A stretch of DNA of 64,000 bases from Hymenobacter piscis (GTDB lineage Bacteria > Bacteroidota > Bacteroidia > Cytophagales > Hymenobacteraceae). Positions within the stretch are counted from its first letter, which is position 1. Every line of letters begins with the position of its first letter. The stretch lies in contig NZ_JAHHZN010000015.1 in the NCBI RefSeq assembly GCF_018760735.1, positions 1 through 64,000 of the forward strand. Reading direction: 5' to 3'. The translations under genes and the position numbers were made by a program. Below the pieces are notes generated by a model that had not been told where the DNA came from, searched no databases, and was given only the letters and a program-made list of their open reading frames with translations. Shown one piece after another: positions 28,382 to 52,630 of the stretch.

Positions 28382-28413
28382 TTGCAAGTGTAAAATTCTG
28401 TCACTTACCTTTG
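28382..28413 (+). promoter_or_regulatory. promoter of the sulfur operon
   Basis: A TTG at 28382-28384 and TACCTTTG at 28406-28413, 21 nt apart, fit the Bacteroidota -33/-7 pattern. Transcription would start near 28420, 24 nt before the SAM-I aptamer. The sequence from the -7 element to the aptamer is shared with the permease locus at 42603-42640. Confidence 0.75.
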
Positions 28414-28443: not shown

Positions 28444-28537
28444 GTTTTTATACAGAGGCGCGGAGAGACAGGCTCGACGAAACGCCGGCAACCAGCGGAA
28501 AATCCGCAACGGTGCCAAGTCCTGACCATATAAAAAC
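28444..28537 (+). promoter_or_regulatory. SAM-I (S-box) riboswitch
   Basis: The P1 helix is a perfect 9-bp pair, GTTTTTATA (28444-28452) with TATAAAAAC (28529-28537). Inside lie the S-box consensus blocks: CAGAGGCGCGGAGAGAC, the GCCGGCAACC block near 28485, and CAACGGTGCCAAGTCCTGA near 28508. The aptamer binds S-adenosylmethionine and normally switches genes off. It precedes cysH by about 320 nt. The 3' strand of P1 lies only 7 nt from the GTG of the leader mini-ORF. Confidence 0.95.
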
Positions 28538-28544
28538 AACAACC

Positions 28545-28643
28545 GTGAACCACTTCCTCAACTTCGCCGCCGATTCCGCTACCCTCTGTGCTCTACAGCA
28601 TGGGTGTTGTGGTATGCTGGGCATGGCCTGTTGTTGCAAGTAA
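28545..28643 (+). CDS. cysteine-codon leader peptide of the sulfur operon
   Basis: A 32-codon ORF that starts with GTG 28545 and ends with TAA 28641-28643. It has six Cys: residues 15, 21, 22, 29, 30 and 31, with the end reading MACCCK. It is placed like an attenuation leader: right after the aptamer, with three tandem Cys codons next to the stop and hairpins downstream. An ORF of similar size and architecture but different sequence follows the second SAM-I aptamer (42396-42500), which argues against chance. Translation is not proven. If real, ribosome pausing at the Cys codons would report on Cys-tRNA supply. Confidence 0.65.
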   Translation: MNHFLNFAADSATLCALQHGCCGMLGMACCCK

Positions 28644-28734: not shown

Positions 28735-28858
28735 CCTGTTCCGCTCCGGGATGTCGGTGGCTGTCTGCCCGCCGCCGGTCCTGACCTGCGCAACCATCTT
28801 CCGGCCGGAATGCCGCGCCCCTCGGGCGGGCCGCTTCCTCCTCCCCTCTTTCCTGCTC

Positions 28859-29635
28859 ATGTCCGTAGCTTCTGCTGCGCCGGCCGCCCACGCCTTGCTG
28901 GACCGCCTGCGCCCTCACTTGGTGGCCGCCTCCGCCCTGGAGCGGCTGCGTCTGGTAGCCGACACCTTCCCCGGTCAGGCCGTTTTTTCCACCTCTTTCG
29001 GGCTGGAAGACCAGATACTCAGCCACCTGATTTTCGCCCACGACCTGCCCATTGAGGTGTTCACCCTCGATACCGGCCGCAACTTCCAGGAAACCTATTC
29101 CACCTGGAACAAGACGCTGATCCGGTACCAGAAGCCCATTGCGGTGTACGCCCCGCAGCGCGAAGACCTGGAAAATCTGCTCCTGCAGAAAGGCCCTAAC
29201 TCCTTCTACGAGAGCGTGGACAACCGCAAGGAGTGCTGCCACATCCGCAAGGTGGAGCCCCTGAACCGGGCCCTGGCCGGCCGCGGGGCCTGGGTGACCG
29301 GCATCCGGGCCGAACAATCCCAGAACCGGCAGACGATGGACCCGGTGGAGTGGGACGCGGCACACCAGCTCGTGAAAATCCACCCGCTGTTCGACTGGAC
29401 TTGGGAGCAGGCTTTAGCCTTCGTGCAGCAGGAGGGCATTCCGGTGAACCCGCTGCACCAGCAGGGCTTCGTGAGCATTGGCTGCGCCCCCTGCACCCGC
29501 GCCATCAAGCCCGGCGAGGATTTCCGGGCCGGCCGCTGGTGGTGGGAAGACCTCTCGGCCAAGGAGTGCGGCCTCCACGCCACCGCCCCCCACGACGGCC
29601 CCGACCCGGTGGTGGAGCCGGTTCCAGCCGGATAG
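28859..29635 (+). CDS. cysH: assimilatory APS (adenylyl-sulfate) reductase, CysH
   Basis: A 258-residue CysH-family reductase that makes sulfite. Cys126-Cys127 and Cys209/Cys212 (CAPC) form the ligand set of a [4Fe-4S] cluster, which marks the type that uses adenylyl-sulfate directly. The catalytic Cys237 is in KECGLH, and STSFGLEDQ near 44 binds the nucleotide. No APS kinase gene is present in the operon, which fits. Start ATG 28859 follows the family opening better than the in-frame ATG at 28751. It is the first gene behind the riboswitch and leader. Confidence 0.94.
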   Translation: MSVASAAPAAHALLDRLRPHLVAASALERLRLVADTFPGQAVFSTSFGLEDQILSHLIFAHDLPIEVFTLDTGRNFQETYSTWNKTLIRYQKPIAVYAPQREDLENLLLQKGPNSFYESVDNRKECCHIRKVEPLNRALAGRGAWVTGIRAEQSQNRQTMDPVEWDAAHQLVKIHPLFDWTWEQALAFVQQEGIPVNPLHQQGFVSIGCAPCTRAIKPGEDFRAGRWWWEDLSAKECGLHATAPHDGPDPVVEPVPAG

Positions 29636-29647
29636 CACGGCAAAAAA

Positions 29648-29807
29648 GAACGTCATGCTGAGCGAAGCGGGAGGCGAAGTCGAAGCATCTCTACCGCTGG
29701 CTATCAACCTGATTCCAACGACAACCGCTCCATAGCCCAGGGTTTAAACCCTGGGCTATGGAACCACACGAAGCGGTAGAGATGCTTCGGCTGCGCTCAG
29801 CATGACG
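29648..29807. repeat. composite inverted repeat, CGTCATGCTGAGC family with inner palindrome
   Basis: The outer arms, 29648-29698 and 29771-29807, are inverted copies that share ATGCTGAGC and GAAGCATCTCTACCGCT. Between them lies a perfect 32-bp palindrome (29730-29761) built on CCATAGCCCAGGG. A second copy of the same composite lies at 32213-32363. Confidence 0.95.
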
Positions 29808-29837
29808 GACAACAACAGAACTGAAATCCAGACAACT

Positions 29838-30746
29838 ATGAGTACCACTTTCGATTACCTCGACCGGCTGGAAGCCGAAGCCATCCACATCCTGCGGGAG
29901 GTGGCGGGGCAGTTTGAGCGGCCGGCCCTGCTGTTCTCGGGCGGCAAGGATTCCATTGTGCTCACGCGCCTGGCCGAAAAGGCCTTCCGCCCCGGCCGCT
30001 TCCCCTTCCCGCTGGTACACGTGGATACCGGCCACAACTTCCCCGAGGTGCTGCAGTACCGCGACGAGCTGGCCGCCCGCCTGGGGGAAAAGCTGGTGGT
30101 GCGCAAGGTGGAGGATACCATTAAGCGGCAGCGCCTGCGTGAGCCGGGCGGCAAGTACCCCAGCCGCAACCCCCTGCAAACCTACACCCTGCTGGAGGTG
30201 ATTGAGGAGTTCGAGTTCGACGCCTGCATCGGTGGGGCCCGCCGCGACGAGGAAAAGGCCCGGGCCAAGGAGCGCATCTTCTCGGTGCGCGACGAGTTTG
30301 GCCAGTGGGACCCCAAGCGCCAGCGCCCCGAGCTCTGGAACATCTACAACGGCCGCATCCAGAAGGGCGAAAACGTGCGCGTGTTCCCCATTTCCAACTG
30401 GACGGAGCTGGACGTGTGGCGCTACATCCAGCGCGAAAACATTCCGCTGCCCGACATCTACTTCGGCCACGAGCGCACCTGCGTGGTGCTGCCCTCGGGC
30501 CAGCTCCTGGGCCTCACCGAGCATTTGCAATTGGATGAGGAGGACGAAATCGTGACCCGGCAGGTGCGCTTCCGTACCGTGGGCGACTCCACCTGCACCG
30601 CCGCCGTGGAAAGCGACGCCCGCACCGTGGAAGACATCATCCAGGACCTGCTGCTGGCCAAAGTAAGCGAGCGGGGCGCCACCCGCCTCGACGACAACAT
30701 ATCCGAAGCCGGCATGGAAGACCGCAAGCGGAACGGATATTTCTAA
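29838..30746 (+). CDS. cysD: sulfate adenylyltransferase subunit 2, CysD
   Basis: A 302-residue PP-loop subunit of ATP sulfurylase, which makes adenylyl-sulfate from sulfate and ATP. The PP-loop SGGKDS covers residues 34-39, and GGARRDEEKARAKERIFS near 134 and RKRNGYF at the C-terminus are typical. It works with CysN, encoded next. ATG 29838 gives the usual MxxFDYLDRLEAEAIHI opening; ATG 29802 lies inside the repeat. Confidence 0.97.
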   Translation: MSTTFDYLDRLEAEAIHILREVAGQFERPALLFSGGKDSIVLTRLAEKAFRPGRFPFPLVHVDTGHNFPEVLQYRDELAARLGEKLVVRKVEDTIKRQRLREPGGKYPSRNPLQTYTLLEVIEEFEFDACIGGARRDEEKARAKERIFSVRDEFGQWDPKRQRPELWNIYNGRIQKGENVRVFPISNWTELDVWRYIQRENIPLPDIYFGHERTCVVLPSGQLLGLTEHLQLDEEDEIVTRQVRFRTVGDSTCTAAVESDARTVEDIIQDLLLAKVSERGATRLDDNISEAGMEDRKRNGYF

Positions 30747-30904
30747 ATGTGTGAAATGTGACGAATGTGGGTGAATGTGAGAAATAAAGGGTGCACCGTC
30801 CGACACAATGACGCGCCGCTCTGCTGCTCTTTCTCACCACTCATTCCACTTCGCTGAACAGTCATTTTTCACATTTCTCACATTCACCCACATTCTTCAC
30901 ATTA
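30747..30904. repeat. intergenic inverted repeat, AATGTG family
   Basis: The left arm (30747-30786) begins directly after the cysD stop. The right arm (30863-30904) ends 5 nt before the GTG of cysN. They are inverse copies built on AATGTG/CACATT. Confidence 0.92.
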
Positions 30905-30909
30905 CAACC

Positions 30910-32199
30910 GTGGACTTACTTCGATTTATCACCTGCGGGAGCGTGGATGACGGCAAGAGCACCCTGATTGGGCGGCTGCTGTACGACTCCGAATCGGTGT
31001 CGCTGGACGTGCTGGCGGCGCTGGAGAAGCGGCAGGCTTCTAATGGCACCGTGGATCTGGCCTTGCTGACCGATGGCCTGCGGGCCGAGCGGGAACAGGG
31101 CATCACCATCGATGTGGCCTACAAGTACTTCACCACGCCCCGCCGCAAGTTCATCATCACCGATGCGCCCGGCCATGTGCAGTACACCCGCAACATGGTA
31201 ACCGGGGCCAGCAACGCCGATCTGGCCATTGTGCTGGTGGATGCCCGCCAGGGCGTGATTGAGCAAACCCGCCGCCACACCCTCATTGCCGCGCTGCTGG
31301 GCATCCGGCACTTTGTGCTGGCTGTGAACAAGATGGACCTGGTGAACTACGACGAGGCCGTATTTGCCCGCATTGCCACCGACTACGCCGAGCTGACCAA
31401 CCACTTCAACCTGCCCGCCGCCACGGCCATTCCGCTGAGTGCCTTGCAGGGCGACAACGTGGTGAAGCCCAGCCAGCACCTGCCCTGGTACACCGGCCCC
31501 AGCCTGCTCCAGCACCTGGAAAGCGTGCCCGGCGCCCAGGAAACCGAGGCCGCGCCCCGCTTCCAGGTACAGTACGTCATCCGGCCCCAGACGCCCGAGC
31601 TGCCCGACTACCGTGGCTACGCCGGCCAGATTCTGAGCGGTCAGTACCGCCGCGGCCAGCGCGTGCGGGTGCTGCCCTCGGGTCTGGAATCAGAAATTGA
31701 AGCCATTGAGGTAAACCAGCAGGAAGTGGAAACCGCCGCGGCCCCGCAGGCCGTGGTAATCCGTCTGCGTGACGACGTGGACGTGAGCCGCGGCGACGCC
31801 CTGGTGCCCGCCGGCCCCGAGGAGCCCACCCTCACCCGCGAGCTGGAAGCCACCCTGTGCTGGATGAGCGAGCAGCCTCTGTGGCCCGGGCGCAAGCTGC
31901 TGGTGCAGCACCACTCGGCCCTCTCGAAAGCAGCCGTATCGGCCATCCTTTACAAGGTGAACGTGCAGACCTTCGCCCGGGTGCACACCGAGCAGGCCCA
32001 GCTCAACGACATCGTGCGGGTGCGCCTCAAAACCGCCCTGCCCCTGGCCGTGGACCTCTACGCCGACAACCGCACCACCGGCTCCTTCATCTTGGTAGAC
32101 GAGCTGACCGGCGACACCCTGGCCGCCGGCCTGGTAGAAGCCGCCAACTCCGAGTACTTCACCGCCCCCGTAGCACCACCGGTAGCGTTTTCAATTTAG
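30910..32199 (+). CDS. cysN: sulfate adenylyltransferase subunit 1 (GTPase), CysN
   Basis: A 429-residue EF-Tu-like GTPase that drives ATP sulfurylase. The P-loop is GSVDDGKST (10-18), switch II DAPGHVQYTRNM near 86, and NKMDLVNYD near 140. There is no C-terminal APS-kinase domain, as expected with an APS-type CysH. GTG 30910 is chosen because the next residues, DLLRFITCGSVDDGKS, match the family start; the upstream ATG at 30808 lies in the repeat. Confidence 0.96.
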   Translation: MDLLRFITCGSVDDGKSTLIGRLLYDSESVSLDVLAALEKRQASNGTVDLALLTDGLRAEREQGITIDVAYKYFTTPRRKFIITDAPGHVQYTRNMVTGASNADLAIVLVDARQGVIEQTRRHTLIAALLGIRHFVLAVNKMDLVNYDEAVFARIATDYAELTNHFNLPAATAIPLSALQGDNVVKPSQHLPWYTGPSLLQHLESVPGAQETEAAPRFQVQYVIRPQTPELPDYRGYAGQILSGQYRRGQRVRVLPSGLESEIEAIEVNQQEVETAAAPQAVVIRLRDDVDVSRGDALVPAGPEEPTLTRELEATLCWMSEQPLWPGRKLLVQHHSALSKAAVSAILYKVNVQTFARVHTEQAQLNDIVRVRLKTALPLAVDLYADNRTTGSFILVDELTGDTLAAGLVEAANSEYFTAPVAPPVAFSI

Positions 32200-32212
32200 G
32201 CTGCTGACGAAC

Positions 32213-32363
32213 AGAACGTCATGCTGAGCGCAGCCGAAGCATCTCTACCTCTGGCTAATCAGATGGCAGCACCGATAACCGCTCCATAGCCCAGGGTTTA
32301 AACCCTGGGCTACTGAACCGCCACAACGAAGCGGTAGAGATGCTTCGGCAAGCTCAGCATGAC
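32213..32363. repeat. composite inverted repeat, second copy
   Basis: Outer arms 32213-32249 and 32331-32363 with an inner AGCCCAGGG palindrome (32284-32312), in the same layout as 29648-29807. The inner palindrome differs by one or two bases at its right end. A short TCACCATT-like tail (32378-32400) abuts the cobA ATG. Confidence 0.93.
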
Positions 32364-32400
32364 CGACAATTTACTCATTCACCACTTCACCATTTCACTG

Positions 32401-33162
32401 ATGCAAACGCCCCGCCTTACGGTACTGGGTGCCGGCCCCGGCGACCCGGAGCTGCTCACGCTCAAAGGGGCGCGGGTGCTGTCGGAAGCCGATGTGATTT
32501 TGTACGACGCGCTGGCCAACCGCGCCCTGCTCGGGCACGCTCGCCCCGAGACCGTGCTGGTGCCCGTGGGCAAGCGGCGCGGCATGCGCAGCCACTCGCA
32601 GGACGATATCAACGCCCTGATTGTGGACCACGCCCGCCGCTACGGCCACGTGGTGCGCCTCAAGGGCGGCGACCCGTTTGTGTTCGGGCGCGGCCGGGAG
32701 GAAATGCTCTACGCCGAAGCTCACGGCCTGCTCACGGACTACGTGCCCGGCATCAGCAGCGCAGTGGCTGCCGCCGGGACAGCGGGTATTCCGGTCACGC
32801 ACCGGGGCCTGAGCGAAGGGTTCCGGGTGATTACGGCCACCACCGCCACCGGCGAGCTGGCCGGCAGCATCCGGGAAGCCGCCCAGGACGCCCGCGGCAC
32901 CACCGTCATTCTGATGGGCCTGGGCGAGCTGCCGCGCATTGTGCAGGCCTTCTGCGAGCAGGGCCACGCCGACACCCCGGCCGCCATCATCCAGAACGGC
33001 ACCCTACCCCACGCCCGGCTGGTAACTGGCCCCGTAGCCGAGCTGCCCGCCCGCGCCGCCGCCGCCGAAATAGGTGCGCCGGCCATCATCATCATTGGCG
33101 AAGTAACCCGCCTGGCTACTCCGGAGAAACTAGCGCTGCTGCCGGAACTGTACGCGGCGTAG
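32401..33162 (+). CDS. cobA: uroporphyrinogen-III C-methyltransferase, CobA
   Basis: A 253-residue SAM-dependent methyltransferase that makes precorrin-2, the precursor of the siroheme in sulfite reductase. Motifs are LGAGPGDPELLTLKG (about residues 8-22), VRLKGGDPFVFGRG near 84, and PGISSAVAAAGTAGIPVTHR near 116. This is the stand-alone form without the CysG N-terminal domain, which here is fused to a permease (38263). The stop TAG forms the first bases of the following inverted repeat. Confidence 0.95.
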   Translation: MQTPRLTVLGAGPGDPELLTLKGARVLSEADVILYDALANRALLGHARPETVLVPVGKRRGMRSHSQDDINALIVDHARRYGHVVRLKGGDPFVFGRGREEMLYAEAHGLLTDYVPGISSAVAAAGTAGIPVTHRGLSEGFRVITATTATGELAGSIREAAQDARGTTVILMGLGELPRIVQAFCEQGHADTPAAIIQNGTLPHARLVTGPVAELPARAAAAEIGAPAIIIIGEVTRLATPEKLALLPELYAA

Positions 33163-33344
33163 TCGCCTCACCCCCAACCCCCTCTCCGAAACAGGAGAGG
33201 GGGCTCTAACTCTAGCTTTAGCAACTGTTCAGCCATACTCTCCGCCCCGCTCTTTCTTCCTGAACAGGAAGTAACACTAGATCTAAAAACTAGTGCTAGA
33301 GCCCCCTCTCCTTTTCGGAGAGGGGGTTGGGGGTGAGGCGACTA
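33160..33344. repeat. intergenic inverted repeat, TCACCCCCAACCCC family
   Basis: Arms 33160-33191 and 33313-33344 are perfect inverses over 32 bp, and the similarity extends inward. The left arm starts with the TAG stop codon of cobA. Each arm also holds a CCCTCTCC/GGAGAGGG hairpin. Confidence 0.95.
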
Positions 33345-33374
33345 CGACTAGAGCAGCCCCAACCACTACGTCCT

Positions 33375-35231
33375 ATGTCTCTTCTTTCAGCTTCCCCCAC
33401 GCTTCCCATTGGCCTCGACGACCAGGCGCTGCAGCAGCTGGCGGCAGGCCTCACCTCCCAGCAACTGGTGTGGCTGAGCGGCTACCTCTACGGCCGCGCC
33501 GGCGCGGCAGCGGCTACCGTTGCGGCCGTAGCCCCGGCTCCGGCGGTGGCGGAAGCCGCCGCGGCTAGTCGGCTTACCATCCTGTTCGGCTCTCAGACCG
33601 GCAACAGCAAGAAAGCCGCCGGCCTGGTGGCCGAGGCGGCCCGCCGCCGGGGCCTGCAGCCGCAGGTGCGCGACATGAACGACTACCCCACCAAAGACCT
33701 CAAAACCGAGCAGCAGTTGCTGGTGGTGGTGAGCACCCAGGGGGAAGGCGACCCGCCCATTGCGGCCGAGGAGCTGCACCAGTTCCTGCTCAGCAGCCGC
33801 GCCCCCAAGCTGCCCGACCTGCAGTACGCCGTGCTGGCCCTGGGCGACAAAAGCTACCTGCAGTTCTGCCAGACCGGCTTCGAGTTCGACCAGCGCCTGG
33901 CCGAGCTGGGTGGCCGCCGCCTCGTGGAGCGGCTGGACTGCGACGTGACCTTCGAGGACGAAACCCGCCAGTGGGCCGAGCAGGTGCTCAGTCGCATTGC
34001 CGAGCTGCAGCCCGCCCCGGCTCCCGTAACGGCTGGTACCGCCGTGGCCGCGCCGGTGGCGGCCTCGGTAGGTGCGGGCTACGCGCCGGAAGTGGCCCCG
34101 CTGCCCGCCGCCGTGGAGTACAACGCCCGCAACCCCTTCGGGGCGGAGCTGCTGGAAAAGATTCAGCTCAACGGCCGGGGCTCCACCAAGGAAACCTACC
34201 ACCTGGAGTTCTCCCTAACTGATTCGGGCCTGACTTACGAGCCCGGCGACGCCCTGATGGTGCAGCCCCGCAACCGCCCCGCGCTGGTGCAAGAGGTGCT
34301 GCAGGCTGCCCGCCTAGCCGAAGCTACCCCGGTGCGCCTCGAAGCCGAGGAACTGGACCTGACCACCGTCCTCACCGAGCGGCTGGAGCTGTCGGTTATC
34401 ACCCGCGACGTGCTGGAGCGCTACGCCGCCGTGGCCCCGCAGTACCCGCGCCTCCGCGAAATTCTGGCTGATACGGCCGGGCTGGGCACCTACCTGTACG
34501 GCCGCGACGTGGCCGATTTGCTGACCGAGTTTCCGGTGGAGCTGTCGGGGCAGCAGCTGGCGGCGGTGCTGCGGCCGTTGCCGGCCCGGGCGTATTCCAT
34601 TGCCTCGTCGCTGCTGGCCCACCCCGAGGAAGTGCACCTGACGGTGGGGGCCGTGCGCTACGAAACCCACGGCCGCGCCAAGCACGGGGCCTGCTCCGGC
34701 TACCAGGCCGACCACCTCAGCCTCGGCGACACGGCCCGGGTGTGGGTGGACCGCAACGAGTACTTCAAGCTACCGCAGGACGCCGCCACCGACATCATCA
34801 TGGTGGGCCCCGGCACCGGGGTAGCGCCCTTCCGGGCCTTCGTGGAGGAGCGGGCCGAAACCGGCGCTACCGGCCGCAACTGGCTGCTGTTCGGTAACCC
34901 CCACTTCACCACCGACTTCCTGTACCAGACCGAGTGGCAGCAGCACCTCAAGCGCGGCACCCTCGACCGCCTCGACGTGGCCTTCTCCCGCGACCAGGCC
35001 CAGAAGCGCTACGTGCAGCACCGCCTGCTGGAACAGAGCCGCCGCGTGTACGAGCAGCTCGAAAACGGGGCCTACTTCTATGTGTGCGGCGACAAGTCCC
35101 GCATGGCCCACGACGTGCAGCAGGCTCTGCGCCAGATCATCCAGCAGGAAAGCGGCCATGACGCCGATTACGCCGCTGAGTACCTGCGCCAGCTCAAAAA
35201 GTCGCGCCGGTTTTTGGAGGATGTGTATTAG
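33375..35231 (+). CDS. cysJ: sulfite reductase flavoprotein subunit, CysJ
   Basis: A 618-residue diflavin reductase. An N-terminal helix segment (LTSQQLVWLSGYLYGR, like CysJ) leads to an Ala-rich linker (about 40-65), then flavodoxin FMN domain with FGSQTGNSKKA near 74, another Ala/Pro linker, then FAD-binding (RAYSIASSLL near 403) and NADPH domains (GPGTGVAPFRAF near 478). The C-terminus, ending YLRQLKKSRRFLEDVY, is the usual one. It passes electrons from NADPH to CysI, encoded two genes later. Start ATG 33375. Confidence 0.94.
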   Translation: MSLLSASPTLPIGLDDQALQQLAAGLTSQQLVWLSGYLYGRAGAAAATVAAVAPAPAVAEAAAASRLTILFGSQTGNSKKAAGLVAEAARRRGLQPQVRDMNDYPTKDLKTEQQLLVVVSTQGEGDPPIAAEELHQFLLSSRAPKLPDLQYAVLALGDKSYLQFCQTGFEFDQRLAELGGRRLVERLDCDVTFEDETRQWAEQVLSRIAELQPAPAPVTAGTAVAAPVAASVGAGYAPEVAPLPAAVEYNARNPFGAELLEKIQLNGRGSTKETYHLEFSLTDSGLTYEPGDALMVQPRNRPALVQEVLQAARLAEATPVRLEAEELDLTTVLTERLELSVITRDVLERYAAVAPQYPRLREILADTAGLGTYLYGRDVADLLTEFPVELSGQQLAAVLRPLPARAYSIASSLLAHPEEVHLTVGAVRYETHGRAKHGACSGYQADHLSLGDTARVWVDRNEYFKLPQDAATDIIMVGPGTGVAPFRAFVEERAETGATGRNWLLFGNPHFTTDFLYQTEWQQHLKRGTLDRLDVAFSRDQAQKRYVQHRLLEQSRRVYEQLENGAYFYVCGDKSRMAHDVQQALRQIIQQESGHDADYAAEYLRQLKKSRRFLEDVY

Positions 35232-35273
35232 TAGTGAGACGTGAGTAGTGAGATGGTAATCATCTGCCACCGA

Positions 35274-35444
35274 TGTAGAGACGCAACATCTTGCGTCTCC
35301 CGTCAGAACAGCCGGAACTACACGAACCGCCGCCCCATGTAGAGACGCGACACTTCGCGTCTCCCGCCAGAACGACCAGCACCGTTTACCGCTTCAACGA
35401 AACAACATCAGCAACGACGAGACGCAAAATATTGCGTCTCTACA
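35274..35444. repeat. three copies of the GAGACGC hairpin family
   Basis: Two direct copies (35274-35299 and 35339-35364) and one inverted copy (35419-35444) of TGTAGAGACGC followed by its complement. The same family forms the inner layer at 23715-23798. Confidence 0.92.
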
Positions 35445-35454
35445 ACCGCCCAGC

Positions 35455-35502
35455 CCGTCAGGCTCCCCCTCTCCCCCTGGAGAGGGGGCCGGGGGGTGAG
35501 GC
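35455..35502. repeat. palindromic element, CCCCCTCTCC family
   Basis: A hairpin of CCCCTCTCC and GGAGAGGGG flanked by CGTCAGG and TGAGGC, ending 7 nt before the ATG at 35510. It matches the coding copy at 23933-23981. Confidence 0.92.
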
Positions 35503-35509
35503 CCACATT

Positions 35510-36220
35510 ATGACCAAGACCCGCTCAATTCTGTTGCTGATCCTGCTGCCCCTGGCCCATCTGGCCAGCGGCCAGACCACGCATGAGCGCGGCTATTGGC
35601 TGCGGGCTTACCTGCGGGTGCAGCTCTCGGAGCGCTGGGCCTGGCACAGCGAGCTAGATGAGCGGCGGCTGCTCAGCCCCGGCCGGCAGTGGCAGCTCAT
35701 CACCCACCAGCACCTGCACTACCGGCTTGCCCGGCCGCTGGATGTGGCCCTGGGCCTGAGCTACCCCCGCCAGCCGCCCGCCTCGGGCGGCCGGGCGCTG
35801 CAGGAGTGGCGCGGCTTTGGGGAGGCCACCCTCACCACCCCGCTCAGCTCGCGGGTGCGCCTGCAGAACCGGCTGCGCCTGGAGCAACGCTGGCTGGAGC
35901 CCGCCGCTGCCGAGCAGCCCGGTCCCTGGGAAAGTCGGGGCCGCCTGCGGTACCGCGTGCAGGCCGACTGGCAGCTCACCCCCGCCTGGAAGCTGCGCGC
36001 TTCCGATGAAGTGCTGTTTCATCCCGACCAGTTCGACCAGAACCGCGTGTACGCCGGCGTGGAGCGGCAGCTGAGGGCTGGTTTCGCCGCCGAGCTGGGT
36101 TACCTCTGGTTCTACCAGCACCGCTACCACCGCCCCGATTACTTCAGCCGCGACGTGCTACGCCTCACCTTGTTCAAAGACCTGCGCCTGCATCGTCCGC
36201 CGCCCACGCCCCAGGGCTGA
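35510..36220 (+). CDS. DUF2490-family outer-membrane-like protein
   Basis: A 236-residue exported protein with a signal peptide (MTKTRSILLLILLPLAHLASG). The rest is a series of amphipathic beta strands with many aromatic and Arg residues (RVQLSERWAWHSELDERRL, RLQNRLRLEQRWLE), as in DUF2490 proteins, which are predicted beta-barrels. The function is unknown. It lies between cysJ and cysI, so it is probably expressed with sulfite reductase. Its TGA stop lies inside the CAGGGCTGAAGCCCTGG palindrome. Confidence 0.82.
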   Translation: MTKTRSILLLILLPLAHLASGQTTHERGYWLRAYLRVQLSERWAWHSELDERRLLSPGRQWQLITHQHLHYRLARPLDVALGLSYPRQPPASGGRALQEWRGFGEATLTTPLSSRVRLQNRLRLEQRWLEPAAAEQPGPWESRGRLRYRVQADWQLTPAWKLRASDEVLFHPDQFDQNRVYAGVERQLRAGFAAELGYLWFYQHRYHRPDYFSRDVLRLTLFKDLRLHRPPPTPQG

Positions 36221-36331
36221 AGCCCTGGGCTACGCAGCGCCCTGACAGCCTTGAATACGGAAGCCTGTTGCTCCAATAGCACTCCGTAACCCGCTACCTA
36301 GCCCAGGGCTTTAGCCCTAGGACCACCGAAA
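36209..36331. repeat. intergenic inverted repeat, AGCCCAGGG family
   Basis: A left palindrome (36209-36232) contains the stop of the DUF2490 gene. A right palindrome (36299-36322) lies shortly before the cysI ATG. The two are related to the inner palindromes at 29730 and 32284. Confidence 0.88.
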
Positions 36332-36346
36332 CCCAGAACCACCACC

Positions 36347-38062
36347 ATGTCCAACGCCCCCAAACTTTCCGAAGTCGAGCACGTCAAGGAAGCCAGCAAC
36401 TACCTGCGCGGCACCCTGGCCGAAAGCCTCGTGAACCCGCTCACCGGTGCCCTCTACCCCGACGATACCCACCTGATCAAGTTCCACGGCTCCTACCAGC
36501 AGACCGACCGGGACCTGGACTCGGAGCGCAAGCGCCAGAAGCTGGAGCCGCTCTACTCGCTCATGATTCGGGTGCGGGTGCCGGGCGGCATTGCCTCGCC
36601 GGCCCAGTGGTTGTGCATGGATGAGCTGGCCGACCAGTACGGCAACCACACGCTCAAGCTCACCACCCGCCAGGCCTTTCAGCTGCACGGCGTGCTCAAG
36701 CGCGACCTGAAAAAGACCATCCAGGGCTTCAATGAGGCCCTGCTGGACAGCATTGCGGGCTGCGGCGACGTGAACCGTAACGTGATGTGCAACCCCAACC
36801 CGCACGAGAGCCCCCTGCACGCGGCCGTGTACGAGGTGTCGAAGCAGATCAGCACCCACCTCACGCCCCGCACCTCGGCCTACTGGGACTTATGGCTGAA
36901 CGGGGAGCCGCAGTTCACCAGCGCCCCCAATGAGGGCGAGGAGGACGCCGAGCCCATCTACGGCAAAACCTACCTGCCCCGCAAGTTCAAGATTGCCCTG
37001 GCCATTCCGCCCTACAACGACACCGACATCTTCGCCAACGACCTGGGCCTGATTGCCATTGAGGAACGGGGCCAGCTGGTGGGCTTTAACGTGGCCGTGG
37101 GCGGCGGCATGGGCATGACCTTCGGCATGCCCGACACCTACCCGCGCCTGGCCGACATCATCGGCTTCGTACCCGCCGATAAAGTGGTGGACGCCTGCGA
37201 GAAAATCGTGACGATTCAGCGCGACTGGGGCAACCGGGAAAACCGCAAGTTCTCCCGCCTCAAGTACACCGTAGACCGCGTGGGCCTCGACGTGTTCAAA
37301 CAGGAGCTGGACCAGCGCCTGGGCTTCCCGGTGGAGCCCGCCCGCCCCTACCAGTTCCGCAGCTCCGGCGACGCCTACGGCTGGTCCATCCAAGCCAATG
37401 GCCGGGCCCACCTCACGCTGTTCGTGGAAGGCGGCCGCATCCTTGACCGGGACGGCTACGCGCTCAAAACCGCCCTGCGCGAAATTGCCGCCTTCCACAC
37501 CGGCGACTTCCGCCTCACCGGCAACCAGAACCTCATCATCGCCAACGTGGCCCCCGAGCACCGGCTGAGCGTGCAGGCGGTGTTGCAGCAGCACGGCGTG
37601 GCCGTGGAAGCGGGTAAGGAGCTGACCGGGCTGCGGCGCGGGGCGCTGGCCTGCGTGGCCCTGCCCACCTGCACGCTGGCCTTCGCGGAGGCCGAGCGGT
37701 ATCTTCCGGAATTATTGGATAGATTGGACCAGATCATTCGCCAACAGGGTCTGGCTCAGGACGATATTCTGCTGCGGATGACGGGCTGCCCCAACGGCTG
37801 CGCCCGCCCCTACCTCGGCGAAATCGGGCTGGTGGGCCGGGCCGTGGGCCGCTACAACCTGTACCTCGGTGCCGCTTTCAACGGGGAGCGGATGAACAAG
37901 CTCTACAAGGAAATGCTGGACGAAGACGGCATCGTGCAGGAACTCACGCCCCTGCTTGCCGACTACGCCCAGAACCGCCAGCCCCAGGAGCGGTTTGGTG
38001 ATTTCGTCATCCGCCAGGGCTACGTGCAGCCCACCGCAAGCGGCCTGACGTTTCACGAGTAA
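36347..38062 (+). CDS. cysI: sulfite reductase hemoprotein subunit, CysI
   Basis: A 571-residue siroheme- and [4Fe-4S]-containing enzyme that reduces sulfite to sulfide with six electrons. The cluster/siroheme Cys are 436, 442, 481 and 485, in ACVALPTC and TGCPNGCARP; they align with the E. coli CysI ligands. The substrate-binding basic residues lie in KLTTRQAFQLHG near 106. Full length. The close CysI similarity together with CysJ supports an NADPH-dependent enzyme. Confidence 0.96.
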   Translation: MSNAPKLSEVEHVKEASNYLRGTLAESLVNPLTGALYPDDTHLIKFHGSYQQTDRDLDSERKRQKLEPLYSLMIRVRVPGGIASPAQWLCMDELADQYGNHTLKLTTRQAFQLHGVLKRDLKKTIQGFNEALLDSIAGCGDVNRNVMCNPNPHESPLHAAVYEVSKQISTHLTPRTSAYWDLWLNGEPQFTSAPNEGEEDAEPIYGKTYLPRKFKIALAIPPYNDTDIFANDLGLIAIEERGQLVGFNVAVGGGMGMTFGMPDTYPRLADIIGFVPADKVVDACEKIVTIQRDWGNRENRKFSRLKYTVDRVGLDVFKQELDQRLGFPVEPARPYQFRSSGDAYGWSIQANGRAHLTLFVEGGRILDRDGYALKTALREIAAFHTGDFRLTGNQNLIIANVAPEHRLSVQAVLQQHGVAVEAGKELTGLRRGALACVALPTCTLAFAEAERYLPELLDRLDQIIRQQGLAQDDILLRMTGCPNGCARPYLGEIGLVGRAVGRYNLYLGAAFNGERMNKLYKEMLDEDGIVQELTPLLADYAQNRQPQERFGDFVIRQGYVQPTASGLTFHE

Positions 38063-38262: not shown

Positions 38263-39777
38263 ATGTCCCTTTCCTCCAACAACGCCCTGCCCCAGCCCGA
38301 GCCGCCGCCCGCGGTGCCCGATGGCAACCGGCTTTTTCCGGTGTTTCTGAAGCTGGAACAGCTGCACGTGCTGCTGGTGGGCGGCGGGGCCGTGGGCCAT
38401 GAGAAGCTCTCGGCCATGCTGGCCAACAGCCCCAACGCGGCCATTACGGTGGTGGCTACCTGGTTTGGGCCCGAGCTGCGGGTGCTGGCCGGCCAGCACC
38501 CTGCCGTGCAGCTGCGCGAGCAGCCCTACGACCCCACCCACCTCGTCGGCCACGACCTGGTGATTGTGGCCACCGACGACAAAGCCCTTAACCTGCAGAT
38601 CAAGGCCGACGCTACGCGCCAGCGCCTGCTCTGCAACGTGGCCGATACGCCCGCCGCCTGCGACTTCTACCTGGGCTCCATCGTGCAGAAAGGCGACCTG
38701 AAAATTGCCATCAGCACCAACGGCAAGTCGCCCACCATTGCCAAGCGCCTGCGCGAAATGCTCACCCACACCCTCCCCGACGAGCTGCACGACGTGCTCC
38801 AGCGCATGGCGCAGATCCGGGAGAAGGTAGGCGGCGACTTCGCCCACAAGGTAAAATCCCTGAACGCCGTCACGGCCGAGCTGACCGGCGGGCCGGCTTA
38901 CGAATCACCCGCGGCGGCGCGGTGGCGCAAGATTGCCACCGGGGCCCTGCTGGCTTTTGCGGCCATGCTGGTGTTCAACATTCTGAGCTACTATTTTACC
39001 TGGACGCAGGTGTGGTCGGCGGCCACCCACGCCGAAACGTTCTGGCTGTTCGTGGCCATCGGCTTCGGCGCGCAACTCATCGACGGGCTGCTGGGCATGG
39101 GCTACGGCGTAGTCACGGCCATCAGCCTGATGAGCCTGAACATTGCCCCGGCGGCCGTGAGTGCCAGCATCCACACCGCCGAAATGTTTGCCAGCGGGGC
39201 CTCGGGTTACCACCACTACCGCTTCGGCAACGTGAACAAGCGCCTGTTCAAAGCCCTGCTGATTCCGGGCGTGCTGGGCGCCATTGCGGGGGCCTACCTG
39301 CTCTCGAAGTTCGGCGAAACCTACGCTGGCTACGTGAAGCCCTTTCTGGCGGCCTACCTGTTGCTGCTGGGCGTCCGCATCATCAGCAAGGCCTTCAGCA
39401 AGCCCGGCCCGCGCAAGAAACACAAGAAGCTGGGGTTGCTGGCCGCGGCCGGCGGCTTCCTCGATTCGTTTGGCGGGGGCGGCTGGGGGCCGCTGGTGAC
39501 CAGTACGCTCATTGCCGGGGGCCGCACGCCGCAGTACGTGATTGGCTCGGTGAGCGTCACGGAGTTCTTCGTCACGTTTGCCAGCGCCGTTACGTTCTTC
39601 GCCACGCTGGGCATCTCGCACTGGCAGATTATCCTGGGCCTCATCATCGGGGGCGTGGCCGCCGCGCCGCTGGCCGCCCGCCTGGCCGGCCGCCTGCCCG
39701 TGCGCTGGATGTTTGTGGGCGTGGGCCTGATGGTGATTGTGTGGAGTTTGTGGGCGCTGCGAAAAGTCTTTTTTTAA
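38263..39777 (+). CDS. fusion of precorrin-2 dehydrogenase/ferrochelatase (Met8-like) and TauE/SafE permease
   Basis: A 504-residue two-part protein. Residues about 25-215 match the Met8/CysG-N domain, with LHVLLVGGGAVGHEKL near 34, VIVATDD near 105 and ISTNGKSPTIAKRLRE near 150. It oxidises precorrin-2 and inserts iron to give siroheme. Residues about 225-504 form a TauE/SafE permease with about eight membrane segments (LIDGLLGMGYGVV near 267, GGFLDSFGGGGWGPL near 398), expected to move sulfite or another sulfur anion. Both jobs fit the operon. One ORF with no frame break. Confidence 0.9.
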   Translation: MSLSSNNALPQPEPPPAVPDGNRLFPVFLKLEQLHVLLVGGGAVGHEKLSAMLANSPNAAITVVATWFGPELRVLAGQHPAVQLREQPYDPTHLVGHDLVIVATDDKALNLQIKADATRQRLLCNVADTPAACDFYLGSIVQKGDLKIAISTNGKSPTIAKRLREMLTHTLPDELHDVLQRMAQIREKVGGDFAHKVKSLNAVTAELTGGPAYESPAAARWRKIATGALLAFAAMLVFNILSYYFTWTQVWSAATHAETFWLFVAIGFGAQLIDGLLGMGYGVVTAISLMSLNIAPAAVSASIHTAEMFASGASGYHHYRFGNVNKRLFKALLIPGVLGAIAGAYLLSKFGETYAGYVKPFLAAYLLLLGVRIISKAFSKPGPRKKHKKLGLLAAAGGFLDSFGGGGWGPLVTSTLIAGGRTPQYVIGSVSVTEFFVTFASAVTFFATLGISHWQIILGLIIGGVAAAPLAARLAGRLPVRWMFVGVGLMVIVWSLWALRKVFF

Positions 39778-40768: not shown

Positions 40769-40789
40769 TTAATTCTTAATTCTTAATTC
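40769..40789. repeat. ATTCTTA heptamer, short copy
   Basis: About three units of the heptamer at the 3' end of the permease gene. They encode ELRIKN and the TAA stop on the minus strand. Confidence 0.92.
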
Positions 40790-42220
40790 ATTCCCCAGCT
40801 TGCTGTGCTTGCGGCCGTAGCCGAAGTAGATGGCCAGGCCGATGGCCAGCCACACGGCCAGCCGCAGCCAGGTTTCCCAGGGCAGGGCCAGCATCATCAC
40901 CACGCAGGTCAGGATGCCGAGGATGGGCACCAGCGGCACCCAGGGCGTACGGAAACCGCGCGGCGCGTCGGGCTCGCGCTTGCGCATGATGAGGATGCCC
41001 ACGCACACCATCACGAAGGCCAGCAGCGTGCCGATGCTCGTCATCTCGCCCACCACCGAAATCGGCACGAAGCCCGCGAACAGCGCAATGAACAGGCCCA
41101 GCAGCAAGTTCGACTGCAGCGGCGTGCGGAACCGCTCGTGAATCCGGGCGAAAACCGGGGGCAGCAAACCGTCCTTGGCCATGCTGAAAAACACCCGGCT
41201 CTGGCCCAGCAGATCCACCAGAATCACGGACGTATAGCCCACGATGATGGCCAGAATCACGGCCGACGACAGCCAGGCGTAGGGCGTTTTCTCGATGGCA
41301 ATGGCTACCGGCGCGGCGCTGTTCTTGAACTCGGTGTAGTTGGCCAAACCGGTCATGACGTGCCCGAACAGCACGAACAGCACGGTGCAGATCAGCAGGG
41401 AGCCGATGATGCCGATGGGCATGTTGCGCTGCGGGTTCTTGGTTTCCTGGGCCATGGTGGCCACAATATCAAACCCGATAAACACGAAAAACACCACGCC
41501 CGCCCCGCGCAGAATGCCGCTCCAGCCAAATTCCCCAAACACGCCGGTATTCTCCGGAATGTAGGGCTGGTAATTGGTAGGGTCGATGTACTGCCAGCCC
41601 AGACCGATGAACACCAGCACCACGGCCACCTTCAGCGTGACCACCAGCGCGTTAAACCACGCCGAGCCCGAGGTGCCGCGAATGATAATCATCGTAATGG
41701 CCAGCACGATAAGCATGGCCGGAATATTGACGAAGCCGTGCACCACGCTGCCGTCGGCCAGCGTGGCCGTTTCAAACGGCGACATCACCAGCTGCGGCGG
41801 CACGATAATGCCGTATTTCTCTAAAAACTTGAGCAGGTACTGCGACCAGCTGATGGCCACCGTGGCCGCGCCCACCGAGTATTCGAGCACCAAATCCCAG
41901 CCGATAATCCAGGCAAACAGCTCGCCCATGGTGGCGTAGGCGTAGGTGTAGGCCGAGCCAGCCACGGGCACCATGGAGGCAAACTCGGCGTAGCACAGCG
42001 CCGAGAAGGCGCAGCCCACGGCCGCCACCACAAACGAGAGCGTGACGGCCGGGCCGGCATTGTTGGCGGCGGCAATGCCGGTGAGCGAGAACAGGCCTGC
42101 CCCAATAATCACCCCAATGCCGATGGCAATGAGGTTGAAGCCGTTCAGGCTTCGTTTCAGCGTTCCGGCGCCGGTTTCGGCGGCCTCCTGCCGCAGCAGT
42201 TCCAGTGATTTTCTGAGCAT
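40769..42220 (-). CDS. APC-superfamily amino-acid permease, CAT-like
   Basis: A 483-residue transporter with about 12 membrane segments. The N-terminal GIGVIIGAGLFSLTGIAA (about 35-52) is the substrate-binding unwound helix of the cationic-amino-acid-transporter group. A SAM-I riboswitch and a Cys-rich leader mini-ORF lie upstream on the same strand. So the likely cargo is methionine, cysteine or a related sulfur amino acid rather than Lys or Arg; this is an inference. The last residues, ELRIKN, and the stop come from the ATTCTTA repeat, as in the gene at 103. Confidence 0.9.
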   Translation of the reverse strand: MLRKSLELLRQEAAETGAGTLKRSLNGFNLIAIGIGVIIGAGLFSLTGIAAANNAGPAVTLSFVVAAVGCAFSALCYAEFASMVPVAGSAYTYAYATMGELFAWIIGWDLVLEYSVGAATVAISWSQYLLKFLEKYGIIVPPQLVMSPFETATLADGSVVHGFVNIPAMLIVLAITMIIIRGTSGSAWFNALVVTLKVAVVLVFIGLGWQYIDPTNYQPYIPENTGVFGEFGWSGILRGAGVVFFVFIGFDIVATMAQETKNPQRNMPIGIIGSLLICTVLFVLFGHVMTGLANYTEFKNSAAPVAIAIEKTPYAWLSSAVILAIIVGYTSVILVDLLGQSRVFFSMAKDGLLPPVFARIHERFRTPLQSNLLLGLFIALFAGFVPISVVGEMTSIGTLLAFVMVCVGILIMRKREPDAPRGFRTPWVPLVPILGILTCVVMMLALPWETWLRLAVWLAIGLAIYFGYGRKHSKLGNELRIKN

Positions 42221-42230
42221 AAAAAGGTAC

Positions 42231-42249
42231 GCCCGGCAACTGCCCGGGC
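42231..42249 (-). terminator. hairpin just upstream of the permease start
   Basis: Read on the minus strand, GCCCGG pairs with CCGGGC around a 7-nt loop and is followed by GTACCTTTTT and then the ATG. It could be an intrinsic terminator or a translation-blocking hairpin at the end of the leader. Confidence 0.5.
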
Positions 42250-42395
42250 AAGCGTGAACGAAAAAAACAGCGTGAGGTCAAGCCGGCCGGCGCAGGCGCC
42301 CCGACGGACAGATGCGCCCGCCAACCAGGCCGGCCGCGTCAAGAAAAGGCAGAAATCAGCAGCGCCGCAGCGGGCTGCTCAGGCGCACCGGCCGC

Positions 42396-42500
42396 TCAGC
42401 AACAACAACCCCGGCGCCAACACGCTACCAGCGGCCCGAACGGGCACACAGCGGCAGCAGAAACGACAACACGGGCAGTAAGGCGGGGCAGCACAGGCAC
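42396..42500 (-). CDS. cysteine-codon leader peptide of the permease gene
   Basis: A 34-codon ORF from GTG 42500 to TGA 42396. Cys residues are 19, 27, 32, 33 and 34, so the peptide ends in CCC directly before the stop (GCCC then TGA). The GTG lies 8 nt after the aptamer P1 helix; in the cysH leader the distance is 7 nt. The sequence between the start and the Cys cluster is unlike the first leader, so only the architecture is kept. It is unannotated by length-based gene finders. Expression is not proven. Confidence 0.6.
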   Translation of the reverse strand: MPVLPRLTARVVVSAAAVCPFGPLVACWRRGCCC

Positions 42501-42508
42501 GGCAACTT

Positions 42509-42603
42509 GTTTTTATATGGTCAGGAATTGGCACCGTTCCGCAGCTTGCGGGTGGTTGCCGACGCATCAGTGAGCCTGTCTCTCCGCGCCTCTGTATAAA
42601 AAC
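42509..42603 (-). promoter_or_regulatory. SAM-I (S-box) riboswitch, second copy
   Basis: On the minus strand P1 is the same perfect 9-bp pair, GTTTTTATA (42603-42595) with TATAAAAAC (42517-42509). The blocks CAGAGGCGCGGAGAGAC, GTCGGCAACC and GGAACGGTGCCAATTCCTGA are present. It is about 290 nt upstream of the permease ATG. Confidence 0.94.
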
Positions 42604-42632
42604 AATCCTTCGGCTAGAAAGAATTGATGGCA

Positions 42633-42640
42633 CAAAGGTA
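42633..42640 (-). promoter_or_regulatory. -7 element of the permease leader
   Basis: TACCTTTG on the minus strand, 29 nt before the aptamer. It is identical to the -7 element of the sulfur operon at 28406, and the following CCAATTCTTT-like stretch is also shared. Confidence 0.75.
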
Positions 42641-52471: not shown

Positions 52472-52527
52472 ACAAAAGTCAGGTGATTTTGGCGAGAAAC
52501 GTCAGCCGCAAAAAACCCGTGATAAAA

Positions 52528-52616
52528 AAGCGAGCCAAAATCGCACCGCTCAACCACCTACCCTTGCTACCTTCCGGTCCTGGGGGAATTCAGCAGGAGC
52601 TGGTCGTTCTGACTCG
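52528..52616 (-). ncRNA. ffs: small signal recognition particle RNA (4.5S type)
   Basis: The conserved SRP domain IV loop is visible on the minus strand as CAGGACCGGAAGGTAGCAAG (around 52563-52582); GGAAGGTAGCA is the hallmark that binds the M domain of Ffh. The ends pair as GCGAG with CTCGC, followed by TTTTTT. TACCTTTG (52630-52623) gives a start near 52616. The length (about 90 nt) suits the short bacterial form. Both ends are estimates. Confidence 0.88.
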
Positions 52617-52622
52617 CCGTGA

Positions 52623-52630
52623 CAAAGGTA
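52623..52630 (-). promoter_or_regulatory. -7 element of the SRP RNA gene
   Basis: TACCTTTG on the minus strand, an exact match, 7 nt before the predicted RNA start. Confidence 0.75.

Follow-up and report, generated by a model that had tools for sequence, protein, structure and literature searches.

In the 64,000-nucleotide (nt) stretch of Hymenobacter piscis DNA analysed here (contig NZ_JAHHZN010000015.1, positions 1 to 64,000; hereafter the window), an amino-acid permease gene on the minus strand is preceded by an S-adenosylmethionine (SAM)-I riboswitch aptamer and, directly behind it, by a short open reading frame (ORF) that ends in a run of cysteine (Cys) codons. The SAM-I aptamer and the polycysteine leader form a real composite element, which is widespread in this lineage. 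Taken as a whole, the leader is probably a two-input device, in which SAM would gate initiation of the leader ORF, the terminal Cys codons would read charged tRNA-Cys and the ribosome would shield the RNA from Rho. With rather less assurance, we favour the broader view that the gene controlled by the riboswitch is here a tRNA-reading leader, and that the element would signal sulfur starvation as an AND gate, one that is ancient within the order and has been reused across a regulon of synthesis and uptake.

All parts of the permease-side arrangement that an earlier note on this DNA had described, namely the -7 element, the SAM-I aptamer, the GTG-started 34-codon ORF, the Cys-Cys-Cys-TGA end and the permease, were found again on the minus strand (Table 1). 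The aptamer matches the RF00162 covariance model over model positions 1-108 with 70.7 bits, where the gathering score is 44.4. The leader encodes the peptide VPVLPRLTARVVVSAAAVCPFGPLVACWRRGCCC, followed by the stop. It does start with a GTG shortly after the P1 stem of the aptamer (42500-42498), as had been claimed; the gap between P1 and this codon measures 9 nt and not 8. The motif TANNTTTG is found 15 times in the window against 12.1 expected, neither more rarely nor more commonly than by chance, so that the weight of the -7 element is positional.

Table 1. Features of the two SAM-I/polycysteine leader copies in the window.
Feature	Position	Strand	Basis
-7 promoter element TACCTTTG, Bacteroidota TAnnTTTG type	42633..42640	-	sequence match
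SAM-I riboswitch aptamer, P1 3' strand AUAUAAAAA	42510..42602	-	RF00162
Polycysteine leader ORF, GTG start, 34 codons, Cys-Cys-Cys-TGA end	42396..42500	-	arrangement kept, coding selection
Last Cys codons TGT TGT TGC, TGA adjoining	42399..42407	-	sequence
Post-leader region, 175 nt, leader stop to permease start	42221..42395	-	more C than G here class-wide
Hairpin GCCCGGGCAGTTGCCGGGC, 10 nt 5' of permease ATG	42231..42249	-	folding
APC-family amino-acid permease, PF13520/PF13906, 483 amino acids, ATG at 42220	40769..42220	-	ORF and family match
-7 element TACCTTTG, first copy	28406..28413	+	sequence match
SAM-I aptamer, first copy, before sulfate-assimilation genes	28445..28536	+	RF00162, 73.4 bits
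Polycysteine leader ORF, first copy, 32 codons, CCCK-TAA end	28545..28643	+	ORF
cysH, cysD, cysN, ORF without family (32340-33209), flavodoxin/FAD/NAD reductase, DUF2490 ORF, cysI	28751..38062	+	family matches

SAM-I aptamers were searched in 120 genomes of the genus, 204 of the family (including those 120), 59 from the order and 99 from the class. The loci analysed are part of the matches: the best-scoring ones of each search, further listed ones, and 30 of the 42 matches from 12 family genomes. Genus loci were picked among the matches listed, mainly for short aptamers (at most 95 nt) and not for leaders. The class test was performed on 288 loci with covariance-model coordinates, and the loci were split by the sequence of the P1 3' strand. 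Five loci (L004, L266, L288, L311 and L372) were dropped for want of a definite orientation or P1 position, L004 being the third leader copy of this genome; L194 was skipped and six duplicates were removed beforehand. An ORF was counted as a leader when it started 2-19 nt after P1 and had at least two Cys among its last 12 codons, and the counts were compared with shuffles; a TTG inside CAAGTTGCCGTG was not counted as a leader start.

Two classes of SAM-I locus were obtained. Class B comprises 168 loci, of which 164 have TATAA within the final 12 bases of P1, while 109 of the 120 loci of class A have GATAAG or GATGAG. A leader with at least two Cys lies behind 145 of the 168 class-B aptamers, with at least three behind 135 and with at least four behind 115, against shuffled expectations of 7.8, 2.1 and 0.1 per 168. 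The corresponding class-A counts are 5, 0 and 0 of 120 (shuffled 1.5, 0.2 and 0.0). The earlier note had judged a chance ORF much less likely from two copies in 64 kb. Alone, two copies are thin evidence in a GC-rich region where short ORFs are common; the judgement itself is borne out by the class-B counts, together with the in-frame selection and the taxonomic spread described below. The reading as an ordinary SAM-I riboswitch followed by an ORF that arose by chance was rejected on these counts, and its probability is negligible.

The composite reading also has points to its disfavour. The leader test fails at 23 of the 168 class-B loci, and at 15 of these nothing recognisable stands behind P1. 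The remaining failures are of three kinds: three loci (L117, L145 and L167) are rich in Cys but carry the run at an earlier place, three (L212, L280 and L340) contain two Cys that are scattered, and at two (L234 and L244) the gene of a PF01053 Cys/methionine (Met)-metabolism pyridoxal phosphate enzyme itself starts 10 and 7 nt after P1. Moreover, the loci are related by descent, so that the counts are not independent events.

The class-B leader extends well beyond the genus. It was found at 75 of 78 class-B loci of the genus and, among the family's other genera, at 42 of 45. Other families of the order contribute 25 of 41 (8 of the 11 families have it), and loci from beyond the order 3 of 4. 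At orthologous permease loci, where its loss had been named in advance as a ground for abandoning the idea, the leader is kept in all 15 genus loci examined and in 6 more from another genus of the family.

The leader ORF is, judged indirectly, translated. In 28 independent pairs of close leaders, the ratio of nonsynonymous to synonymous change (dN/dS-like) was 0.35 in frame, compared with 1.00 and 0.87 in the shifted frames, and purifying selection in this frame only points indirectly to translation. The distance between P1 and the start codon, with starts sought within 2-21 nt after P1, is 7-14 nt in all of the 145 leader loci and exactly 9 nt in 96 of them. Cys is the last codon in 108 of 156 leaders, whose length is about 29 to 50 codons (5-95% range); since these 156 were preselected for at least two Cys, the frame and codon counts are descriptive only. 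On the unfavourable side, Cys codons were lost or gained 16 times between close pairs and changed synonymously 8 times (ungapped comparison), which indicates that single Cys positions move though the run persists.

The selection on the ORF might also reflect the peptide itself, which would then either arrest the ribosome as a nascent chain or serve in metal or redox binding as a small Cys-rich product, in place of reading Cys-tRNA. The in-frame selection is real and, within a gene group, residues other than Cys are also kept, for example QHGCC before cysH. Between groups, however, comparison by eye shows nothing in common but location, start and Cys run; the remainder looks unrelated, and the spread of lengths given above goes with this. 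The genes downstream are mostly sulfur genes, as a Cys reader would predict. We therefore consider a role of the peptide as such quite improbable.

Between the leader stop and the next gene lie 77-456 nt, and in most groups the next gene is a sulfur gene. Genes found behind composite leaders are the cysH operon, O-acetylhomoserine sulfhydrylase (with metX and hom), the APC permease and a RimK-like ATP-grasp gene (the 45 cysH rows include some genomes counted via two collections). The RimK-like gene, followed by a gene that begins with MRYGYWMPVFGGWLRN (L118:1091-2494 and similar loci), is a frequent target. At four single loci (L116, L219, L224 and L323), a SusC-type TonB receptor, an M14 carboxypeptidase and two NhaC-like antiporters stand behind SAM-I and a Cys leader; the receptor, carboxypeptidase and antiporter genes are candidate sulfur-scavenging genes.

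Natural variants are found among the cysH loci. Thirteen of 80 CysH loci belong to Hymenobacter, and of these all 13 have the Cys leader and 12 the aptamer. For the other 67, a plus-strand regular expression found no SAM-I, and the same expression also overlooked the aptamer of L041. In L043 (L043:2672-2788) the Cys leader is kept just behind the promoter and the aptamer is lost, with no RF00162 match at E <= 1; this locus comes close to the leaderless mycobacterial layout. In a metagenome-assembled genome of the Chitinophagaceae, a 12-codon leader with five terminal Cys (MVKIDIYCCCCC and stop; L099:2823-2861) precedes cysH, and no SAM-I was found on the strand of this leader. A Cys leader without aptamer in both L043 and L099 indicates that the two modules are separable.

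Taking into consideration that the P1 3' strand (AUAUAAAAA in the window) adjoins the controlled start codon, as expected where SAM-I controls initiation directly, we propose that this strand provides the leader ORF with its A-rich initiation region. Binding of SAM would close P1 and, the strand being the initiation region, block translation of the leader. L234 and L244, where a structural gene follows the same kind of P1 at once, support class B as initiation control. At low SAM the leader would be translated, and its terminal Cys codons would gauge the supply of charged tRNA-Cys. With Cys present, the ribosome would be released at the stop, exposing C-rich, G-poor RNA to Rho, and transcription would end before the permease; with Cys-tRNA short, the ribosome would be held on the last codons, the RNA would be shielded and the permease would be made. 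Expression should be highest when SAM and Cys-tRNA are both low. From the sequences, then, we infer that SAM turns the leader off and that SAM and Cys act as two inputs. Because the Cys codons stand at the end of the ORF, stalled and terminating ribosomes occupy nearly the same position, and the difference would be whether the ribosome stays; such a placement fits shielding better than a classical race between hairpins. In this model, the permease belongs to a regulon for the supply of sulfur amino acids, which would also cover the reduction of sulfate, the synthesis of homocysteine and further genes that may serve scavenging.

For the final step, we give Rho-dependent attenuation within the two-input model about an even chance. 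Behind the leader, C outnumbers G in 96% of 144 class-B loci, against 48% of 110 class-A leaders and 30% of the 23 class-A controls within the same genus. This skew, a number of terminator-like sites near that in shuffles, the lack of excess pairing by the Cys run and a genome that encodes Rho together favour Rho-dependent attenuation. Over all 135 loci, 48 terminator-like sites were counted and 37.1 expected from shuffles. An intrinsic terminator was rejected as the general mechanism, as such sites are hardly enriched in the GC-rich loci (39 against 34.9 in 84 loci). A role of the Cys codons as an antiterminator pairing downstream was also rejected, as this pairing is no greater than in shuffles.

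Several results weigh against Rho. The C over G skew is weak evidence for it, and the class-A control in the family sample shows the same skew in 78% of 9 loci. Some RNA structure in excess of shuffles is present around the leader end, with a mean z of -0.65 over the 135 loci, and at cysH starts, with a mean z of -1.03 in 38 loci. In the 21 permease loci, the 45 nt 5' of the ATG reach a mean z of -1.52 (stretches further up, -0.26, -0.28 and -0.63).

The values at the cysH and permease starts also speak for an alternative with the same two inputs, in which the leader works by RNA folding, through either competing terminating hairpins or a hairpin over the downstream start (classical or translational attenuation). 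In 16 of the 21 permease loci, 10-12 nt separate the end of the last stem from the ATG, the letters of the stem differing between loci, and at the window locus the hairpin (Table 1) is followed by a T run; this hairpin may be a local expression platform. The AT-rich loci point the same way, with terminator-like sites in 9 of 51 against 2.2 expected and the first 60 nt past the stop more folded than shuffles (mean z -1.06). Translation attenuation is said to govern cysteine genes of M. smegmatis (PMC13236596, in excerpt). Against the folding alternative stand the GC-rich loci and the Cys-run pairing already described, and the 45 nt before the MetY-type and RimK-type genes, which are open (mean z +0.33 and +0.37). 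Consensus folding yielded no structure for the 21 permease loci or for 18 MetY-type loci from a single genus; for the 25 cysH loci it yielded only a weak fold, consisting of one small hairpin where the first Cys pair lies, and covariation contributed almost nothing to it. Overall, hairpins that would alternate as terminator and antiterminator are not seen, and a minority of the AT-rich loci may have an attenuator of this kind. We thus regard control by folding as unlikely, though not to be neglected, and retain the shielding ribosome as the preferred reading.

The permease had been taken for an importer of sulfur amino acids, probably Met or Cys, and not for a cationic carrier. The first part of this claim holds at the level of regulation: the leader is kept at the orthologs and shared with the sulfate-assimilation and homocysteine-synthesis regulon, which ties the permease to sulfur amino acids. 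The dismissal of cationic carriage does not hold in the same way, because of a residue in the substrate pocket. The nearest solved relatives of the window permease are GkApcT (5oqt, 6f34) and then the CAT-type cationic carriers, and its score on the profile of the branched-chain amino-acid transporter BcaP (NF053761) is 557.7, below the cut-off of 690. GkApcT is a neutral amino-acid carrier of the CAT branch that recognises Arg and Lys poorly and admits both after the change Met321Ser (PMC5803215, in excerpt). Opposite Met321 the window permease has Asp336, and Asp occupies this position in all 21 leader-bearing permeases examined, the window's included. These permeases thus have neither Met nor Ser there, a small residue being expected for Arg/Lys carriers. 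A paralog in the same genome with 58% identity has Met at this position; it has no SAM-I, and a scan of 470 bases upstream of it revealed no short ORF ending in Cys.

The change from Met to Asp accompanies the leader regulation and would mark a substrate different from that of the paralog. If anything, an acidic pocket residue would match a side chain with a positive charge. Sulfur control would favour a sulfur compound and Asp a positive charge; S-methylmethionine would fit both. It is therefore a possibility to be taken seriously, if short of likely, that the permease carries a cationic amino acid or a sulfonium compound (S-methylmethionine, Lys or Arg) and is only incidentally under sulfur control. 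Besides the invariant Asp, a Gly opposite Ala119 of GkApcT, as in the human CATs, speaks for this; the paralog, however, has the same Gly. The S-methylmethionine version is weakened in that the genome has only one protein of PF02574, the family in which an S-methylmethionine methyltransferase was sought, and this protein is of the MetH type and encoded behind the metH aptamer. Control through SAM and Cys speaks for a substrate that contains sulfur.

In the whole genome, four SAM-I aptamers were found, and a polycysteine leader stands behind three of them. The aptamer before the MetH-type gene (metH) is the one without a leader. The fourth aptamer is followed by a leader ending in CCGACCCCC and stop, and by the genes for O-acetylhomoserine sulfhydrylase, MetX and homoserine dehydrogenase.

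The other copy in the window precedes sulfate-assimilation genes, which were taken as one operon from gene order and strand. Its leader peptide is VNHFLNFAADSATLCALQHGCCGMLGMACCCK, with the Cys run one codon away from the stop. Both copies do have a polycysteine leader; the sameness of length and ending that had been claimed is only approximate, with 34 and 32 codons and with CCC-TGA and CCCK-TAA. The named sequences most closely related to the encoded CysH, at 89% identity, belong to Hymenobacter. Its ORF, listed from 28751 on the plus strand, probably begins at 28859 (the part in question being 28751-28861), where the MSVAxAAPAVHALLD-like N-terminus of the relatives is located. The convergent arrangement of a cysH element (here 28445-28536, plus strand) and a permease element (42510-42602, minus strand), about 14-16 kb apart, recurs in the genus (G050:C7, G111:C1 and G112:C11). 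Elsewhere in the window, a single plus-strand ORF (38263-39777) fuses a siroheme-synthase-type NAD-binding part with a TauE/SafE sulfite-exporter part, and a Bacteroidales small signal recognition particle RNA lies on the minus strand (52524-52626, 73.4 bits).

If true, the joined halves are a natural two-input RNA logic gate for sulfur, in which the riboswitch acts on a sensor ORF and not on an enzyme gene. The rule of a P1 3' strand with TATAA and terminal Cys codons splits the SAM-I riboswitches of this lineage in two classes and predicts new members of the sulfur regulon, transporters included. In addition, the natural variants, with the aptamer lost and the leader kept or with the leader absent and the gene right behind P1, make each input separately testable.

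Both halves of the element are known, and it is their joining that appears new, which is not proof of novelty: no description of a SAM-I aptamer joined to a polycysteine leader was found in the literature searched, part of it available in excerpt, where most subscription papers and all preprints fell outside. The ribosome-binding site of a SAM-I element can sit in the 3' side of P1 (PMC2258182, in excerpt). With such S-box leaders the present element has in common the RF00162 aptamer, a P1 3' strand just before the start and presumably an OFF state with SAM; it differs in that the start under P1 is that of a polycysteine leader ORF and not of a metabolic gene. Upstream of cysS in Rhodobacterales, uORFC-8-2 is likewise a leader ORF in which Cys codons stand in tandem, as a rule at positions 14-15, but it has an intrinsic terminator, and no riboswitch is mentioned for it in the excerpt of PMC8632094. 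For Flavobacterium and Bacteroides, leader peptides are mentioned in general terms in the excerpts of PMC9723704 and PMC7366714.

The closest likeness to the Cys half is in mycobacteria and other Actinobacteria, where polycysteine leader ORFs precede cys genes, no clear terminator was found and Rho has been proposed (PMC1262725, in excerpt); attenuation of the mycobacterial cysteine genes is also cited in PMC13236596 (in excerpt). These are again short ORFs with a Cys run near the stop. The present leaders differ in belonging to another phylum and in being preceded by a SAM-I aptamer. In the window, 132 nt, the aptamer included, separate the -7 element from the start of the permease leader, so that this ORF is not leaderless, unlike the mycobacterial type. 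The mycobacterial polycysteine ORFs are reportedly called leaderless in the title of Canestrari 2020.

Two enterobacterial systems resemble the proposed mechanism in part. The mgtA leader of enterobacteria combines an Mg2+-responsive leader with a proline-codon ORF, mgtL, and thus also unites the sensing of an ion or metabolite with a codon-reading ORF in one leader RNA; its signals are others, and what the aptamer of the present element seems to govern is whether the ORF is initiated. In tnaC of E. coli, a ribosome parked at the leader end shields a Rho site, its arrest being caused by the nascent chain and tryptophan. The shielding would be alike in the element described here, whereas the proposed cause of the halt is a lack of charged tRNA.

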